Origin: Limisphaerales bacterium
Lineage (GTDB): Bacteria; Verrucomicrobiota; Verrucomicrobiia; Limisphaerales; SXTU01
Direction of reading: 5' to 3'
Length of the DNA stretch: 34,042 nt
Assembly: GCA_009773355.1 (NCBI GenBank)
Contig: WRPG01000059.1
Location: 1-34,042, forward strand
The position numbers and the translations under genes are program-made. Positions 7,723-25,078 of this stretch are shown one piece after another. The notes under the pieces are model-generated. The model had not been told where the DNA came from and made no database searches. It saw nothing but the letters and a program-made list of their open reading frames with translations. Position 1 is the stretch's first letter, and every line of letters starts with the position of its first letter.

Positions 7723-8775
7723 ATGAGCGCGCCCGCCCCATCCATGTTCACGCCCGCCGCGAAGTCCATGGCCGAACAGCTCGGCCTCAAACTGGGCCGC
7801 GCCAACCTCGACGAATTCGCCGCCACGTTGCAATCACTCGCAGAAGCGGATCGCAACATCGTCGCCGTGACCAGCGACTCGCGCGGCTCCGGCAAGCTCG
7901 CGCCCTTCGGCAAAGCCCTGCCCAAGCAGCTCGTCGAAGTCGGCATTGCCGAGCAAAACCTCGTTGGCATCACCGCCGGCCTCGCCGCGTGCGGCAAGCG
8001 CGCGTTCGGCGTTTCCCCGAGTTGCTTCCTCACCGCCCGCTCACTGGAGCAAATCAAAAACGACATCTGCTACTCGAACGTCCCCGCCGTCCTCGTCGGC
8101 ATCAGCTCCGGCGTGAGCTACGGCGCGCTCGGCAGCACGCACCACTCGCTCCACGACCTCGCCGTCCTGCGAGCCATCCACAACCTCACCATCATCGCGC
8201 CCGCCGACAACTTCGAGACCCGCGCCGCCATCCAAGCCGCCGCGCGCACGACGAAGCCGATGTTCATCCGCTTCGGCAAAGCCGCGATGTATGACTGTAG
8301 CTCGACATTCCAATGTCGAGACGAGCGCGCCGGCAGATCCGAACTCGACATTGGAATGTCGAGCTACAGCGTCGGCCAGGTCCGCGTTCTCCGCGATGGC
8401 AACGACCTCGCATTCATCGCCACCGGCGAAACCGTCATCCACGCACTGCTCGCTGCCGGCCAGCTCGCCGGGCAAGGCGTGAGCGCCCGCGTCCTCTCGA
8501 TGCACACCGTCAAACCGTTCGACGCAGCCGCCGTCCTGAAAGCCGGACGCGAGTGCCGCGCCGTCATCACCGTGGAGGAGCACAGCGTCCACGGCGGCCT
8601 CGGCGAAGCCTGCGCCGCCACTCTCCTGCAAGCCGGCGTCAGCGTCCCCTTCCGCATCGTCGCCATCCCCGACGAGGACACCGTCACCGGCGCGCAGGCC
8701 GACATCTTCCGCCACTACGGCATCTCGATGGAGGGGCTGGCCGAGGCCGCCCACACTTTGTTGAAACGCGCATGA
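7723..8775 (+). CDS. Transketolase, C-terminal (Pyr-domain) subunit with in-frame REP insert
   Basis: 350 residues: the pyrimidine-binding domain with the catalytic Glu in VEVGIAEQNL (E77), a GSTHHSLHDLAVLR segment (138-151), and the C-terminal domain (FIATGETVIHALLAAGQL to the end). It should pair with the preceding N-half. Residues about 192-216 (CSSTFQCRDERAG to DIGMSSYS) are not transketolase sequence. They are encoded by a complete family-A REP pair at 8297-8367, which sits between the RFGKAAMYD and VGQVRVLRDG segments that normally join within a few residues. The frame stays open. The insert lies in the linker between the two domains, a place likely to tolerate a loop. The stop overlaps the kinase start as ATGA. 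Confidence 0.9.
   Translation: MSAPAPSMFTPAAKSMAEQLGLKLGRANLDEFAATLQSLAEADRNIVAVTSDSRGSGKLAPFGKALPKQLVEVGIAEQNLVGITAGLAACGKRAFGVSPSCFLTARSLEQIKNDICYSNVPAVLVGISSGVSYGALGSTHHSLHDLAVLRAIHNLTIIAPADNFETRAAIQAAARTTKPMFIRFGKAAMYDCSSTFQCRDERAGRSELDIGMSSYSVGQVRVLRDGNDLAFIATGETVIHALLAAGQLAGQGVSARVLSMHTVKPFDAAAVLKAGRECRAVITVEEHSVHGGLGEACAATLLQAGVSVPFRIVAIPDEDTVTGAQADIFRHYGISMEGLAEAAHTLLKRA
8297..8367. repeat. Family-A REP pair 1, inside the transketolase C-half gene
   Basis: The left arm 8297-8320 is GTAG followed by CTCGACATT, CC, AATGTCGAG. The right arm 8344-8367 is its perfect 24-base reverse complement, with a 23-base spacer. Each arm is itself a hairpin with 9-bp stems, and GTAG lies at the outer foot of both. 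This is the REP-inverse-REP (BIME) layout. Confidence 0.92.
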
Positions 8776-10295
8776 GTCGCATTCTCGCCATTGACCAAAG
8801 CACCTCCGCCACCAAGGCCGTGCTCTTCGATGCCACGGGCGCGCTCCTGGCCAAGTCCTCCCGCGACCACCGCCAAATCTACCCGCAGCCCGGCTGGGTC
8901 GAGCACGATGCCGAGGAAATCTGGCAGAACGTCCTCGCTGTCATCCGCGACCTCGCCGCGCGGCACGACCTCTCGCAACTTGCCGGCCTCAGCCTCACGA
9001 ACCAGCGCGAGACCATCGTCGTCTTCGACCGCCAGACCGGCCAGCCGCTCCACCACGCCCTTGTCTGGCAGGACCGTCGCGGCGACGCGCTCTGTCAAAA
9101 GCTCCGCGAGCAAGGCCGCGAGAAACTCGTTCAGGCAAAGACCGGCCTCAAGATTGACACCTACTTCTCCGCCTCGAAGCTTGCGTGGCTCATTGAGAAC
9201 AAACCCGACCTCGCCGCCAAGCTGCGCGATGGCAGCGCCGTCATCGGCACGATGGACGCCTACCTCATCCACCGGCTCACGGGCGGCTCGGTCTTCGCCA
9301 CGGACCACACGAACGCCAGCCGCACGCTGCTCTTCGACGTAGCTCGACATTCCAATGTCGAGTCGGGAAGCGAGGGGACTCGACATCGGAATGTCGAGCT
9401 ACGCTGGGACGCGGAGCTTTGCGACCTCTTCGGCGTCCCCATGAATGCGTTGCCGGAAGTCCGCGAGAGCGCCTCCCACTTCGGCGAGACCAACGCCGAC
9501 GGCGCGCTGCCGCGGCGCGTCCCCATCGTCGGCGTCATGGGCGATTCGCAGGCGTCGCTGTTCGCGCAGCGCTGCTTCGCGCCGGGCGCGACCAAGGCCA
9601 CCTTCGGCACCGGCACGAGCGTGTTGCTGAACATCGGCAGCCAATTCAAACCCGCCGGGCAAGGAGCCGTCACCGCGTTGGCTTGGGTTCACAAAGGCAC
9701 TCCGACTTACGCCTCCGAGGGCATCATCAACTTCTCCGCCGCAACGGTGGCTTGGCTCAAGGACCAGCTCGGCCTCGTCCGCGACGCCGCCGAGAGCGAG
9801 GCGCTCGCGCTCGCCGTGCCGGACAACGGCGGCGTGTATCTCGTGCCCGCGTTCGCCGGCCTGAGCGCGCCGTATTGGTCGCCCGACGCCCGCGCGGCCA
9901 TCGTGGGCATGACCGCCCACACGCGGCGCGAGCACATCGTCCGTGCGGCGCTGGAATCCATCGCCTACCAACTCCGCGACGTGCTCGACATGATGCGCGG
10001 CGAGGCGGGCGTGGGGCTTCAGTCGCTCCACGCGGACGGCGGCCCTACGCGCAACCAGTTTCTCATGCAATTCACCGCCGACCTGACCGGCGTGGAGTTG
10101 AGCGTGGCCGATGTCGCCGAATCCTCCGCGTGGGGCGCGGCGATGAACGGCCTGCTCGCGCTCGGCGAGTTCAAGTCGCTCGACGAACTCGCCGCGCTGC
10201 CTCGCAGCACCCGCACCTACTCTCCGCGAATGCCCGCCGCTGAAGTGAAGCGCCTCCACGACGGATGGCTCGCCGCGGTGAAGCGAATCCTCTAA
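8772..10295 (+). CDS. FGGY carbohydrate kinase, glycerol-kinase-like, with in-frame REP insert
   Basis: 507 residues. FGGY-family kinases phosphorylate glycerol or ketopentoses with ATP in the cytoplasm. Evidence: the phosphate-1 motif [17 protein letters not shown] (4-20), [11 protein letters not shown] (41-51), [18 protein letters not shown] (73-90), WQDRRG (99-104), the [13 protein letters not shown] segment (177-189), [12 protein letters not shown], the [14 protein letters not shown] adenosine-side segment, and [20 protein letters not shown]. Sequence flavour is closest to GlpK. Between LLFD and [12 protein letters not shown] about 20 foreign residues (190-209) are encoded by a REP pair at 9339-9402. 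The start is the ATG overlapping the upstream stop. In an isomerase and transketolase operon it more likely makes a ketose phosphate than glycerol-3-phosphate; apulose kinase is one candidate (inference). Confidence 0.9.
9339..9402. repeat. Family-A REP pair 2, inside the FGGY kinase gene
   Basis: The left arm 9339-9362 is identical to pair 1. The right arm 9379-9402 differs by one base (CATC for CATT next to the centre). The spacer is 16 bases. It is read in a different codon phase from pair 1, giving ARHSNVE and RHRNVEL instead of SSTFQCR and LDIGMSSY. Confidence 0.92.
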
Positions 10296-11901: not shown

Positions 11902-12902
11902 GCAAGGCATCATCAGCGGCGGGCACGGGCAAATCCCGGAGGCTCGAGTGGCGACGGTTCCAAAGCATCGCCGCGTTGGTATTCATGGTCGTGGCCCTGA
12001 GTCTGCACCCGCAGTCTTCGGGCACCTTCCTCAGCCAGGAGAACGCGCTAAATGTGCTGCGGCAAATCTCCGTGAACTTGTGCCTCTCGGTTGGCCTGAC
12101 GCTCATCATACTCAGCGGCGGGATTGATTTGTCCGTCGGCTCGGTGCTGGCGTTCTCTGGCGCGGTCGCAGCGGGCTTGCTGAAGGACGGCATCGTGCTG
12201 CCGGGGCTGGGCGTGGTCGTGCAGTTCACGGCATTAGGCGCGTGTCTCGCCGGGTTGCTCGTGGGCGGGGCGCTGGGCTGGTTTAACGGGTGGGCCATCA
12301 CGCGTTTCAAGCTGCCGCCGTTCGTCGCGACGCTCGGGATGTTGAGCATCGCGCGCGGGCTGACGCAGCTGTGGACGAACGGGTTTCCCATCACCGGACT
12401 TGGCTCGGACCTCGGGCTGATCGGCACCGGGCGGTGGCTCGGGGTGCCTGCCCCGGTGTGGATCAGCGCACTGGTCGTCGCGCTCGGCGTGGGACTGACG
12501 CGCCACCTGGCTTTGGGCCGGCACATCTATGCGGTGGGCGGCAACGAGACTGCCGCGCGGTTCACGGGGCTGAACATTGACCGCATCAAACTCGCCGTCT
12601 ACACGCTCGGCGGCGCGCTCGCGGGCGTCGCGGGGCTGCTGCTCACCGCGCGGCTCGACTCCGCCACGCCCAACGCCGGCATCGGCTACGAGCTTGATTC
12701 CATCGCCGCCGTCGTCATCGGCGGCACGTCGCTGAACGGCGGACGCGGCAGCGTGCTCGGCACCGTGCTGGGCTGCCTCATCATCGGCGTGTTGAACAAC
12801 GGCCTCGTGCTGCTGGAGGTGTCACCGTTCTGGCAGCAGGTCATCAAGGGTCTCGTCATCCTCGCCGCCGTGGCGCTGGATAAGATGAGCGCGAAAGAGT
12901 AG
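11898..12902 (+). CDS. RbsC-like sugar ABC transporter permease
   Basis: About 334 residues with eight to ten membrane helices. The BPD_transp_2 family signature appears as ISVNLCLSVGLTLIILSGGIDLSVGSVLAFSG, with NGWAITRFKLPPFVATLGMLSIARG, YAVGGNETAARFTGLN and the C-terminal IAAVVIGGTSLNGGRGSVLGT loop that contacts the ATPase. The ATG at 11898 overlaps the upstream TGA (translational coupling); an ATG two codons earlier is the alternative. The TAG stop (12900-12902) is the TAG of the GTAG foot of REP pair 3. The protein therefore ends just where that repeat begins. No ATP-binding subunit is encoded anywhere in the window. Confidence 0.92.
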   Translation: MSKASSAAGTGKSRRLEWRRFQSIAALVFMVVALSLHPQSSGTFLSQENALNVLRQISVNLCLSVGLTLIILSGGIDLSVGSVLAFSGAVAAGLLKDGIVLPGLGVVVQFTALGACLAGLLVGGALGWFNGWAITRFKLPPFVATLGMLSIARGLTQLWTNGFPITGLGSDLGLIGTGRWLGVPAPVWISALVVALGVGLTRHLALGRHIYAVGGNETAARFTGLNIDRIKLAVYTLGGALAGVAGLLLTARLDSATPNAGIGYELDSIAAVVIGGTSLNGGRGSVLGTVLGCLIIGVLNNGLVLLEVSPFWQQVIKGLVILAAVALDKMSAKE

Positions 12903-12993
12903 CGCGACATTCCAATGTCGCGACGCACGATCATGACAAACAGCCAAACAAAGCGCGCGGGGACGGGTGCTCGACATTGGAATGTCGAGCTAC
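12899..12993. repeat. Family-A REP pair 3, at the permease stop
   Basis: The left arm 12899-12922 is GTAG then CGCGACATT, CC, AATGTCGCG: the stem base pair has changed on both sides compared with the other arms. The right arm 12970-12993 is the consensus. The spacer is 47 bases. The left GTAG provides the permease stop codon, and the right arm ends 20 bases before the AraC start. Confidence 0.9.
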
Positions 12994-14093: not shown

Positions 14094-14942
14094 ATGAACG
14101 CCATCCGCCCAAACGCACCGCGCTCCGCGCGCGGCTTCACCCTGATTGAACTGCTCGTCGTCATCGCCATCATCGCCATTCTGGCGGGGATGCTCCTGCC
14201 CGCGTTGGCGAAGGCCAAGGAGCGATCCCTGCGCGTCAGTTGCGCCAGCAACCTCAAGCAGGTTGGGGTCGGCGTCTTCATGTATGCGGGTGACAACGAC
14301 GACAAACTTCCGCCCAATCGGGTGAGCGCGACGTCCGGTTCGCTTTGGTATCCGTATGAAGTTGGGCGCCAGACCGGCCAGAACTGGACGCAAGGTCCGC
14401 ATAATTTGGGTTCACTTTGGGCAACCAAAGTCATTCCGGACGGCCAAACCTTTTACTGCCCCAGCAGCAAGCGACTGCCGGGAGAGTTTCGTTATGATGC
14501 TTACGCGAAGATCGGTCCCTGGCCCCTTGGCGCGGACCCGGCGGATCCGTTGTGGACTCAATTGGGCGTGAGTTCGGGCAACGTCCGGGCCGGATACTTC
14601 TACCTCCCACAATCACTGATCAAGGATGTGGACGCGGCTGGAAACCCGCTTCCCTACGCGCGGATAACACTCCGACGCGTCAGCGGGGTGGACTACAACT
14701 TCCTGCGAATGGCCGAAGTCAACGCCGGCAAATCCATGGGCACCGACCTGGTCTATAGCAGCGCGCCCAAGTCCCAGCCTCATCGCGACGGCGTCGCCGG
14801 GCTGAATGGGTTGTTTGCCGACGGGCACGTGAACTATCAAAGCCAGCGGAAGGTGCCGCAGGCATGGGCGAGTCCCTACAACGACTGGAGCGCTCTGACT
14901 CCCGTTGGCATCCGGACCATCATGGACATGTGGGAGCCTTGA
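14094..14942 (+). CDS. Prepilin-type N-methylation domain / H-X9-DG protein 1
   Basis: 282 residues. The N-terminus has a type IV prepilin-like cleavage site and helix, [17 protein letters not shown] at about residues 11-27, with the conserved Glu5 of the mature form. The C-terminus has the H-X9-DG style ending ([19 protein letters not shown]). In Verrucomicrobiota and Planctomycetota such proteins occur in large numbers and are thought to be pseudopilins or surface proteins processed by a prepilin peptidase; the role is not established. The ATG at 14094 is chosen because the longer frame from 13935 would bury the leader. A second copy of the architecture follows. Confidence 0.85.
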
Positions 14943-15108: not shown

Positions 15109-15936
15109 ATGAAAATGAACTCCACCTGTTCGAGTAAGCCAGACAGCCTGCGCGGCTTCACCCTGATTGAACTGCTTGTCGTCATCGCCATCATCGCCAT
15201 CTTGGCGGGGATGCTGTTGCCGGCCCTGTCCAAGGCCAAGGCCAAGGCGCACCAGACCCAGTGCCTCAACAACACCCGGCAGTTATCCATGGCCTGGCTG
15301 TTGTATGCGGGCGACCACGACGACCGACTGTCTGGCAATGTCGGTGGCAGGACGCGGTCAATGAACCTGACCTACTCGAACCAATCGTGGGTGTTGGGGT
15401 GGATGTCTTTGGGCACCGTTGCTTACGGCTCCGTTGACACCTCTCTGTTGCAGGTCGGGCAGCTCGGCAACTATCTCGTAAGGAATGTTGGCGTCTTCAG
15501 ATGCCCGGCCGACAAGTCCAGGAGCGGTGGCACGAACCGCGTCCGCAGCGTGGCCATGAACGGGTATCTGGGCAGCCCCGCGCTCGGCACTGTCACCGCC
15601 GGCTTCCGCCGCTACAACCGGCTCACGGACATCACTTCCCCCACGCCGTCGGACACTTGGGTGTTCATTGATGAGCGCGAAGACTCCGTCAACGACGGCT
15701 TCTACTACACTGTGGCGGCGGCCAGCCCGGCAGCGACACAAATAGGGGACTGGCCGGCCAGCTACCACAACCAGGGCGGCGCGCTTTCCTTCGCCGACGG
15801 CCATTCTGAAAACCACAAGTGGGTGGACGTCCGCACCCGGCCGGTCGTCAGCGGAACCCAGTTGACCTATCCAACTCCGTCCCCGAACAACGAGGACATG
15901 TGGTGGCTCTCGCAGCGCTCCACCGCGCCGAACTGA
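15109..15936 (+). CDS. Prepilin-type N-methylation domain / H-X9-DG protein 2
   Basis: 275 residues. The leader is [17 protein letters not shown] at about 16-32, followed by the helix, [20 protein letters not shown], a [17 protein letters not shown] segment and the terminal [15 protein letters not shown] motif. It is a paralogue of the gene 166 bases upstream, sharing nearly the same nucleotides across the leader/helix region but diverging after it. The start is ATG 15109 (MKMN). The long frame from 14905 is discarded because prepilin leaders are short. The pair may be exported by a type II-like machinery encoded elsewhere. Nothing links them directly to sugar catabolism except location. Confidence 0.85.
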
Positions 15937-15972
15937 ACCCGTCCACCACGCAGCTGCGTCTTGTGCCCGGCA

Positions 15973-16077
15973 GCCCGACATTCCAATGTCGGGGTGAACG
16001 ACAAACAAATCCCAGTGAAACACCCCCTGCCGCGCCGATTGCTGCGCTCTGTTCTCGCCATTGGAATGGCGAGCTAC
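15973..16077. repeat. Family-A REP pair 4 (diverged), overlapping a signal peptide
   Basis: The left arm is at 15973-15993 (CCCGACATT, CC, AATGTCGGG). The right arm is at 16054-16077 (CTCGCCATT, GG, AATGGCGAG, then CTAC). Both arms differ from consensus by paired changes that keep each 9-bp stem. The left foot is GCAG, the right foot is GTAG on the minus strand. The right arm is coding: it reads LAIGMASY in the next gene's leader. Confidence 0.85.
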
Positions 16078-17364
16078 TTGGCGCACGCCTCAACGCCGGT
16101 CGCCGCCGCAGCCCCGGCCGCGCGGCATCGGGTCGTCGTTTCCACGGACATCGGCGGGACGGACTTCGACGACTTCCAGTCCATGGTCCATCTGCTCGTT
16201 TATGCCGAAGCGATTGACCTCGAAGGGCTGATTTCGTCGCCTTACGGACCGGGGCGCAAGGAGCACATCCTTCAGGTCATTGACCGCTACGAGCGCGATT
16301 ATCCAAACCTCAAGTCGCACTCCGCCCGCTATCCCGCGCCCGCCGCATTGCGCGCCATCTCGAAGCAGGGCGCAACCGACTCGGCGGGCCTGCGCGGCTT
16401 CGGCCAGCCCACCGAAGGCTCGCGCTGGCTCGTCGAGTGCGCCCGGCGCAACGACCCGCGCCCGCTCTGGGTTCTCGTGTGGGGCGGCATTGACGACCTC
16501 GCGCAGGCGTTGCACGACGCGCCCGACGTGAAGCCCAAACTGCGCGTCTATTTTATCGGCGGCCCGAACAAGAAGTGGTCCACCACGGCATACGACTACA
16601 TCGAGCGCGCGCACCCGGACCTGTGGATTATCGAGGCCAACGACACCTATCGCGGCTGGTTCAGCGGCGGCAACCAGACGGGCGAGTGGGGCAACGCTGC
16701 GTTCGTCACCACGCACGTTGCCGCTCGCGGCGCGCTCGGCGACTTCTTCGCCACGGGCATCCGCTTCGACGCGAAGACCCGCTCCACCGTGAAGATGGGC
16801 GACACGCCGTCGCTCACCTACCTGTTCGGCAAGACGCCGGAAGACCCGACGAAAGACTCGTGGGGCGGACGCTTCGTGCGCGCGTGGGAACGGCCGCGTT
16901 ACACCTTTAACCGCGCGCCCACGGCGGCGGACCGCGTCGAGACCTTCGCGATTGTGGAACTCATCTATCGTCCTGCTGCAACTGCGCCCGCCGACGCCAC
17001 AGCGTCGCTGGTCGTGGACAAGCAGAGTTTCCCCGGCTTCAAGGACGACGCGGGCGCGTGGCACTTCCTGTTCTCGCCGAAGGAGGCGAAGACGTGGAGC
17101 TACGCAATCAAGAGCACGCACCCCGGCCTCGACGGCCAGACCGGCGGGTTCACGTCCTACTGGGCGACGCCGGACCTGGCGGGCAAGCCCTCCGCGCGCC
17201 ACCCGAACTGGTGGACGGACGACCCCGACCCCGCCGTGGCCGAGCGCGTGTTCGCGGGCGCGAAGACCGTAAGCAAATGGCGCGAGGAATTCCTCCGCGA
17301 CTTCGCCTCGCGGCTGGAGCGATGCAAAACACCTGCCGCTCCTGAACCCGCATCGAAACCATGA
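16015..17364 (+). CDS. Secreted DUF1593 (nucleoside-hydrolase-like) protein 1
   Basis: About 449 residues from GTG 16015; the open frame extends to 15961 without a leader-like start. The signal peptide [21 protein letters not shown] ends near VAAAAPA, and part of its core comes from a REP arm. The domain begins [20 protein letters not shown], which keeps the DxxxxxxDD metal-binding pattern of nucleoside hydrolases, and continues with [24 protein letters not shown] and [12 protein letters not shown]. The C-terminal part is a beta-rich DUF1593 extension. The reaction is unknown; a role on plant-derived glycans or nucleosides outside the cytoplasm is inferred. Its stop overlaps the next start (ATGA), so it is coupled to the acetylesterase-like gene. 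Confidence 0.85.
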
Positions 17365-19333: not shown

Positions 19334-19460
19334 CTTCTCCCTCTCCCTTCCTCGGAGGAGGGGAGAGGGTTGGGGTGAGGGGTTACGTGCGTCGGGGCTG
19401 GCGGCCCCACCCCTCATCCGGCCTTCGGCAACTTCTCCCCTCCTCCGAGGAAGGGAGAAG
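19334..19460. repeat. Imperfect inverted repeat with CCTCGGAGG cores
   Basis: The left arm at about 19334-19382 and the right arm at about 19411-19460 are imperfect reverse complements sharing CTTCCTCGGAGGAGGGGAG. The core of each arm is itself palindromic. The type CCCTCACCCCAACCCTCTCCCC is a widely scattered intergenic repeat in many bacteria. It has no GTAG foot, so it is not the same class as families A and B. It occupies the 473-base gap 19209-19681, in which I see no gene. Confidence 0.7.
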
Positions 19461-19613
19461 GCGCGCGATATTGCGTTCAGTTCACATTCCACCGTCTGCT
19501 ATCGGGAATTGGCAAGAATCCAGCCCAGCCCGGCTCGAAGTCCGCACCAGAAAAAGGCCACCTTAGAAAGCCGGGGGATTTGGGTCGGCTGACCGGGAGC
19601 AATCTTCTCGCGC

Positions 19614-23662: not shown

Positions 23663-25078
23663 ATGAAAAACTTCCTGTCCAGTTTCCTCCTCGCGTTCGC
23701 GCTTTGCGCCACCCTCGCGTCCGCCGCTGATAGGCCGCGCGTGCTCGTGCTCACCGACATCGAGAACGAGCCGGACGACGCGATGTCCATGGTGCGGTTC
23801 CTCGTGTATGCCAACCAGTGGGAGGTCGAGGGGCTTGTCGCGACCACGTCCATCCATCAGCAGAAGAAGACGGCTGCGTGGCGCATCCGCGAGATTGTGG
23901 AGGCTTACGGCAAAGTGCGGGACAACTTGCTGCTGCACGAGCCGGGTTTCCCGACAGCGGCGCATTTGCTCTCGGTCATCCGCGACGGACGCACGGACTA
24001 CGGCATGAGAGCCGTCGGCGAGGGAATGGATTCGCCCGGCTCGGAACTCATCATCGCCGCCGTGGACAAGCCGGACGCGCGACCGTTGTGGGTGCCGGTG
24101 TGGGGCGGGCCGAACTGTCTCGCGCAGGCGTTGTGGAAGGTCCGCGCCACGCGCACCGCCGCCGAGTTGGACAGGTTCGTCGCCAAGCTGCGCGTCTATA
24201 CCATCTCCGACCAGGACGACAGCGGGCCGTGGTTGCGCAAGACGTTTCCCAAGCTCTTCTACATCGCCAGCCCCGGCATGCACGCGGGCGGCGCGTATCA
24301 CTTCGCGACGTGGAGCGGCATCAGCGGCGACCAGTTCCACGGGCGCTTCACGGGCGCGGACTTCGCCATCGTGGACAACCCATGGCTCGACCGGCACATC
24401 CGCAGCAAGGGGCCGCTTGGCGCGCAGCATCCGCACACGAAGTTCCTGATGGAAGGCGACACGCCGAGTTTCCTGAACCTCATCGCCAACGGCTTGAACA
24501 ACCCCGAGCAGCCCGACTGGGGCGGCTGGGGCGGGCGCTACGAATCCTACCTGCCGCGCACGCAGAAGTGGTTCCTCGAACCCGAGACACGCGCGTTCTG
24601 GACCGACGCGGTGGATGAAGTGCTCGGCGCGGACGGCCAGTGGCACACGAGCAATCACGCGACCATCTGGCGTTGGCGCGCCGCGTATCAAAACGACTTC
24701 GCCGCGCGAATGGACTGGACCATCAAGCCCTTTGCCGAGGCGAACCATCCGCCCGTCCCCAAGCTCAAGCACGCGGCCCAACTCACCGCGAAGCCCGGCG
24801 AACGCGTCAACTTGAGCGCCACCGCCACCGACCCCGACGGCCACGCGGTGAGCTACGAATGGTTTTACTATCCCGAGCCAGGCACGTTCGCCGTGTCCGG
24901 CGCACGCAGCGGCGCGCCGGTGAAAGTCGAGGACGCGGACAAACCCGACGCGTGGTTCCTCGTCCCGAACAGCCGCGTGCTGCGCAACGGCACGATGCAC
25001 TTCATCCTCGCCGTCACGGACAAAGGCACGCCGCCACTCACTCGCTACGAGCGGGTGATTGTGAACGTCGCCCCGTGA
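23663..25078 (+). CDS. Secreted DUF1593 (nucleoside-hydrolase-like) protein 2
   Basis: 471 residues with a signal peptide ([20 protein letters not shown]). The N-terminal domain starts [20 protein letters not shown], keeping the DxxxxxDD metal motif, and contains [31 protein letters not shown] and a [12 protein letters not shown] block parallel to [12 protein letters not shown] of the paralogue at 16015. The C-terminus, from about residue 375, adds a beta-sandwich ([22 protein letters not shown] to VIVNVAP) of the type seen in DUF1593 proteins. It is clearly a paralogue but not a recent copy. Reaction unknown. A hairpin follows its stop. Confidence 0.88.

Follow-up and report, generated by a model that had tools for sequence, protein, structure and literature searches.

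A REPIN arm as the probable core of a signal peptide in a Limisphaerales PF07632 protein

RESULTS

A diverged REPIN reaches into the 5′ end of a PF07632 gene

The stretch of DNA analyzed here (the window, 34,042 nucleotides) is one contig of a Limisphaerales genome of 6.16 Mb. Positions 15970 to 16077 are occupied by a diverged head-to-head REP dimer, that is, a REPIN of the GTAG type, which we refer to as pair 4. The original prediction had the element begin at 15973, and this is corrected here, as the left arm begins at 15970. Ten REP arms were found in the window versus no matches in shuffled windows, and against the consensus arm CTCGACATTGGAATGTCGAGCTAC those of pair 4 carry three differences on the left and two on the right. 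The arms are separated by 60 nt, compared with the 20 to 28 nt that are usual in the family. Like most copies of the family, pair 4 comes directly after a gene, 33 bp past the end of a pilin-like gene (15936), but the space between genes is short at this site and its right arm overlaps the beginning of the coding sequence that follows, a member of PF07632 whose nearest named homologues come from Verrucomicrobiota/Opitutae assemblies and from other phyla too.

15970 to 15993, minus strand: left REP arm of pair 4, GCAGCCCGACATTCCAATGTCGGG, with stem pair 2/19 altered in a compensated manner and GCAG in place of GTAG
15994 to 16053, plus strand: inter-arm spacer of pair 4, 60 nt, holding GTG 15994, GTG 16015, TTG 16039, and n-region codons
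16054 to 16077, plus strand: right REP arm of pair 4, CTCGCCATTGGAATGGCGAGCTAC, reading LAIGMASY, with the compensated change A5C/T16G relative to the consensus
16015 to 17364, plus strand: Sde182_NH-like (PF07632, formerly DUF1593) gene, with GTG 16015 as the most likely start
16048 to 16083, plus strand: putative signal-peptide core by hydropathy, 8 of its 12 residues given by the arm
16066 to 16068, plus strand: rival ATG start in the right arm, with a resulting N terminus that has no usable leader
16129 to 16875, plus strand: Sde182_NH-like (nucleoside-hydrolase-like) domain, E 5e-58

The open reading frame of the PF07632 gene runs from 15961 to 17364, and the right arm lies in frame within it, so placed that the consensus arm would read LDIGMSSY. 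It had been proposed that the arm encodes LAIGMASY inside the leader of the DUF1593 protein. The frame is confirmed, and the term leader applies provided that translation starts at GTG 16015, TTG 16039, or GTG 15994.

The repeat family and its RAYT

About 200 arms with up to three mismatches are present in the genome, compared with none for a reversed-pattern control, and 129 of these are exact matches to the 19-base stretch CATTGGAATGTCGAGCTAC. Arms were gathered by pattern searches and region fetches, which covered nearly all exact-arm sites, and 85 inverted pairs were recovered. Their spacers vary in sequence and are mostly 20 to 28 nt long; the GTAG tag is retained by most arms, the left arm of pair 4 having GCAG. 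Arm matches occur in 10 of the 11 genomes of the genus, with just 1 to 12 in each of the others. The genome also holds a Y1_Tnp open reading frame, a RAYT (L087, 2146 to 2937), with a REP pair of the same family at either end; it matches the REP_Tyr_transpos model at E 2.5e-15, although the match falls short of the model's curated cutoff. The family is thus a GTAG-type REP/REPIN with its own RAYT, as described in PMC3733652, and by analogy with that literature it is presumably mobilized by the RAYT of this genome. REPINs themselves are treated in PMC3116915.

Several further observations were made at the RAYT locus. The pairs that flank the gene (L087, 2020 to 2990) have long spacers of 73 and 49 nt, the C terminus of the RAYT is encoded by the 3′ REP pair, and a small sequence behind the gene reads through an arm in the phase that is also used at pair 4. 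An alignment between the 60-nt spacer of pair 4 and that of the rear pair (L087, 2894 to 2990) is suggestive of a shared origin (0 of 1,000 global shuffles; about 0.005 for local shuffles, among many spacers tested), and we do not rely on it. Elsewhere in the window (19339 to 19461) there is another inverted repeat, of 28 nt and with its arms 67 nt apart, which is unrelated to the REP family.

Position of the repeats relative to genes

Gene positions around the 85 pairs were taken from a self-trained codon-usage gene caller. Most pairs (61 of 85) are intergenic, many of them near the 3′ end of a gene, and for 11 pairs, including one in the window at 12899 to 12993, the GTAG tag supplies the TAG stop of the flanking gene. 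Insertion behind preexisting GTAG targets could be the cause. Nine pairs lie inside genes, two overlap a 5′ end, and two overlap a gene otherwise. Pair 1 of the window (8297 to 8367) is an in-frame insert in the C-terminal half of a transketolase, and pair 2 (9339 to 9402) is an in-frame insert in a relative of glycerol kinase; homologues lack the insert in both cases. These two pairs indicate that translated REPINs are tolerated in this genome. A gene for a heavy-metal P-type ATPase carries a further in-frame pair (L122, 2029 to 2103), a short way past the DKTGTLT phosphorylation motif.

At the other loci where an open frame continues through an arm in front of a gene, a start codon is available downstream of the arm, and in several of them (L107, L083, L116, and L223) it opens a good leader. 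We considered L116 as a second case of an arm in a leader and rejected it, as it has a good downstream start of its own, MPRPLFLAFLLASALSAAAAE. Pair 4 is the only one of the 85 pairs with an arm in the leader and without a good start downstream. It is mainly for this reason that we take its arm to be translated.

Start codon and leader

In-frame starts ahead of the domain are TTG 15961, GTG 15994, GTG 16015, TTG 16039, ATG 16066, and TTG 16078, such that the candidates upstream of the arm are GTG and TTG codons only. A Shine-Dalgarno signal that might have helped to choose among them was sought genome-wide and was not found (23 of 222 versus 28 in the control). Judged from its sequence and hydropathy, the leader that begins at GTG 16015 has a positive n-region, a hydrophobic core, and an AxA-like end. 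It contains a twin arginine (PRRLLRS) without the full Tat motif S/T-RRxFLK; actinobacterial homologues (L149, L153, and L156) carry RREFL. From the starts downstream of the LAIG part (ATG 16066 and TTG 16078), neither a positive n-region nor a core remains.

We expressed leader hydropathy as the best 10-residue Kyte-Doolittle window. The real arm gives a value of 1.93, against 1.28 for the consensus arm, 1.13 once the arm is deleted, and 1.11 when translation starts at ATG 16066. If the leader exists, the arm is therefore its core, and most of that core would be lost with the consensus arm or without the arm, in line with the earlier suggestion that LDIGMSSY would be less suited to the role. 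The core is nevertheless weak for the family: 56 PF07632-type leaders of relatives average 2.6, and only 5 of them fall below the value of pair 4.

Alternatively, translation could begin within the arm, at ATG 16066. In that event the repeat would contribute the start codon and the first residues, MASY, the leader upstream would be untranslated, and either the export signal would have been lost or the protein would be decaying. ATG 16066 is the sole ATG in the N-terminal region and slightly the best start by codon usage, and codons 16015 to 16065 score low, near the bottom of the range for leaders in this genome. Furthermore, many REPs at N termini may be extragenic, since translation may begin downstream of them (PMC3733652), and L116 provides an example here. 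Yet the product would have neither charge nor core, while nearly all orthologues bear a leader. In addition, the in-frame codons upstream specify a charged n-region and then a core, which is unlikely for untranslated DNA, and the remainder of the PF07632 gene is intact. A start at ATG 16066 had been named in advance as evidence against a repeat-derived leader; despite the slight preference in codon usage, we see it as conceivable but on the unlikely side.

Orthologues and the age of export

A leader occupies the same place in almost all of the best relatives of the protein, whose identity ranges from 67 to about 50%, and the REP arm, sought in the leaders of PF07632 orthologues, was found in none of them. 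Export is therefore ancestral, because the orthologues have leaders without the repeat. On these sequence comparisons, the arm is most likely a later intrusion into an existing leader or a partial replacement of it. The idea that the repeat created the secretion signal is thus not supported. A conserved leader in orthologues lacking the repeat had been put forward as grounds for rejecting recruitment; the leaders of the orthologues are conserved in function but not in sequence. The PF07632 gene was also sought in genomes of the same genus and was absent from them, thus offering no empty site to read.

It could also be argued that the LAIG part belonged to the ancestral host leader and that a REP arm arose around it, either newly built or by conversion. 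The best match to the pair 4 leader among orthologue leaders is LLRLVLAIGTSVY of G022, which has no repeat and aligns with a score of 40, reached by 0.1% of shuffles. However, 12 of 903 pairs of orthologue leaders score as high, so that 43 leaders would be expected to give about half such a match, and we rejected the likeness as a sign of homology because it is within chance. Moreover, of the 24 bases of the arm, 22 are those of the repeat, and the agreement extends to the CTAC tag, which lies outside the palindrome. An ancestral origin of the LAIG part is accordingly very improbable. The window holds another PF07632-type gene at 23663 to 25078, a distant paralogue (34% identity) whose signal peptide is ordinary.

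The substitutions in the arm

The original prediction held that two changes, D to A and S to A, both raise hydrophobicity and keep the DNA stem paired. The gain in hydropathy (1.28 to 1.93) and the pairing are as described, but the changes are not separate: A5C/T16G turns GAC into GCC and TCG into GCG on the two sides of one stem pair, and it is one compensated base-pair change.

One could suppose that a RAYT-mobilized palindrome was domesticated as a signal-peptide core, with a palindrome-preserving double change selected for both the hairpin and membrane insertion, so that the repeat would be a new secretion signal. In keeping with this, hydropathy does rise, A5C/T16G is rare (2 of 145 arms), and only 2 of the 27 possible compensated changes reach the observed hydropathy or more. 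That proportion still corresponds to a chance of about 0.07. Compensation, furthermore, is the rule: in the first 71 pairs retrieved, each of the 10 stem changes that affect both sides is compensated, whether the copy is coding or noncoding. The same change also recurs in the left arm of L091, at the 3′ end of a gene and outside any leader. Because compensation is the norm in this family, the change recurs in L091, and 2 of the 27 possible compensated changes do as well, the case for selection for secretion is not made, and a reading of the substitutions as a sign of adaptation is not supported. A5C/T16G fits with secretion without proving selection. Given also that it is a single event and that leaders are older than the repeat, adaptive domestication seems to us unlikely, whether framed as selection on hydrophobicity with DNA pairing kept or on hairpin and membrane insertion together.

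DISCUSSION

Building on the repeat, its frame, the orthologue leaders, and the hydropathy effect established here, we favor, as the probable explanation, that a REPIN arm encodes the core of the signal peptide of an existing protein, with translation from an upstream start. Pair 4, presumably moved by the RAYT, would have landed just behind the pilin-like gene. Translation would set out from a codon ahead of the arm, with GTG 16015 the likeliest, and because the 24 bases of the arm make eight codons and are neutral to phase, the arm would be read as LAIGMASY. A Sec-type or weak Tat-like signal peptide would owe the greater part of its hydrophobic core to these residues. The function of the leader is itself ancestral, the arm having most likely entered an existing leader or taken over part of it. 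One compensated stem change (GAC/TCG to GCC/GCG) would then have converted LDIGMSSY into LAIGMASY, making the core usable, and this palindrome-keeping change may have been retained because export needed it. Of the recruited signal that was originally envisaged, what most likely survives is the arm as core, not a secretion signal made anew by the repeat.

Pair 4 is a real and unusual instance of a kind already published. Translated REPs have been described, and GTAG REPs inside genes, at N termini, and supplying TAG stops have been reported, with intragenic copies in the verrucomicrobium O. terrae exceeding those of all other genomes in the survey (PMC3733652). As in the GTAG-type REPs and REPINs of PMC3733652 and PMC3116915, the repeats here form GTAG-tagged inverted pairs with variable spacers (mostly 20 to 28 nt), sit near the 3′ ends of genes, provide TAG stops, flank the RAYT, and include some copies within open reading frames. 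Pair 4 departs from them in its position, the signal-peptide region of a protein of exported type, and in its 60-nt spacer, which contains the probable start codon. Rickettsia palindromic elements are likewise palindromes translated in frame, including at the N termini of expressed proteins (PMC3733652), but they are a different repeat family, and the literature searched gave no instance of their serving as a signal-peptide core. A literature search for repeats that form signal peptides returned nothing relevant. In its charged n-region, hydrophobic core, and small-residue c-region before the start of the domain, the leader resembles other PF07632 signal peptides, from which it differs in having a core that a mobile repeat would encode and that is less strong than in most orthologues.

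The importance of REP-encoded residues to the protein was left open by PMC3733652. Were a REP copy to lie in the core of a signal peptide, the residues that it encodes would have to matter, and export is easily assayed. Compensated changes in a palindrome have the added property that one change hits two codons together, as in pair 4.

Two other features of the window were observed in passing. In two pilin-like genes that lie next to each other, the DNA for the N-terminal helix is 89% identical over 92 bases (14129 to 14220 and 15150 to 15241). The end of the contig (33503 to 34042) is a repetitive coding region with long, near-identical direct repeats, of which 150 nt match at 93% and units of 48 nt at 100%.
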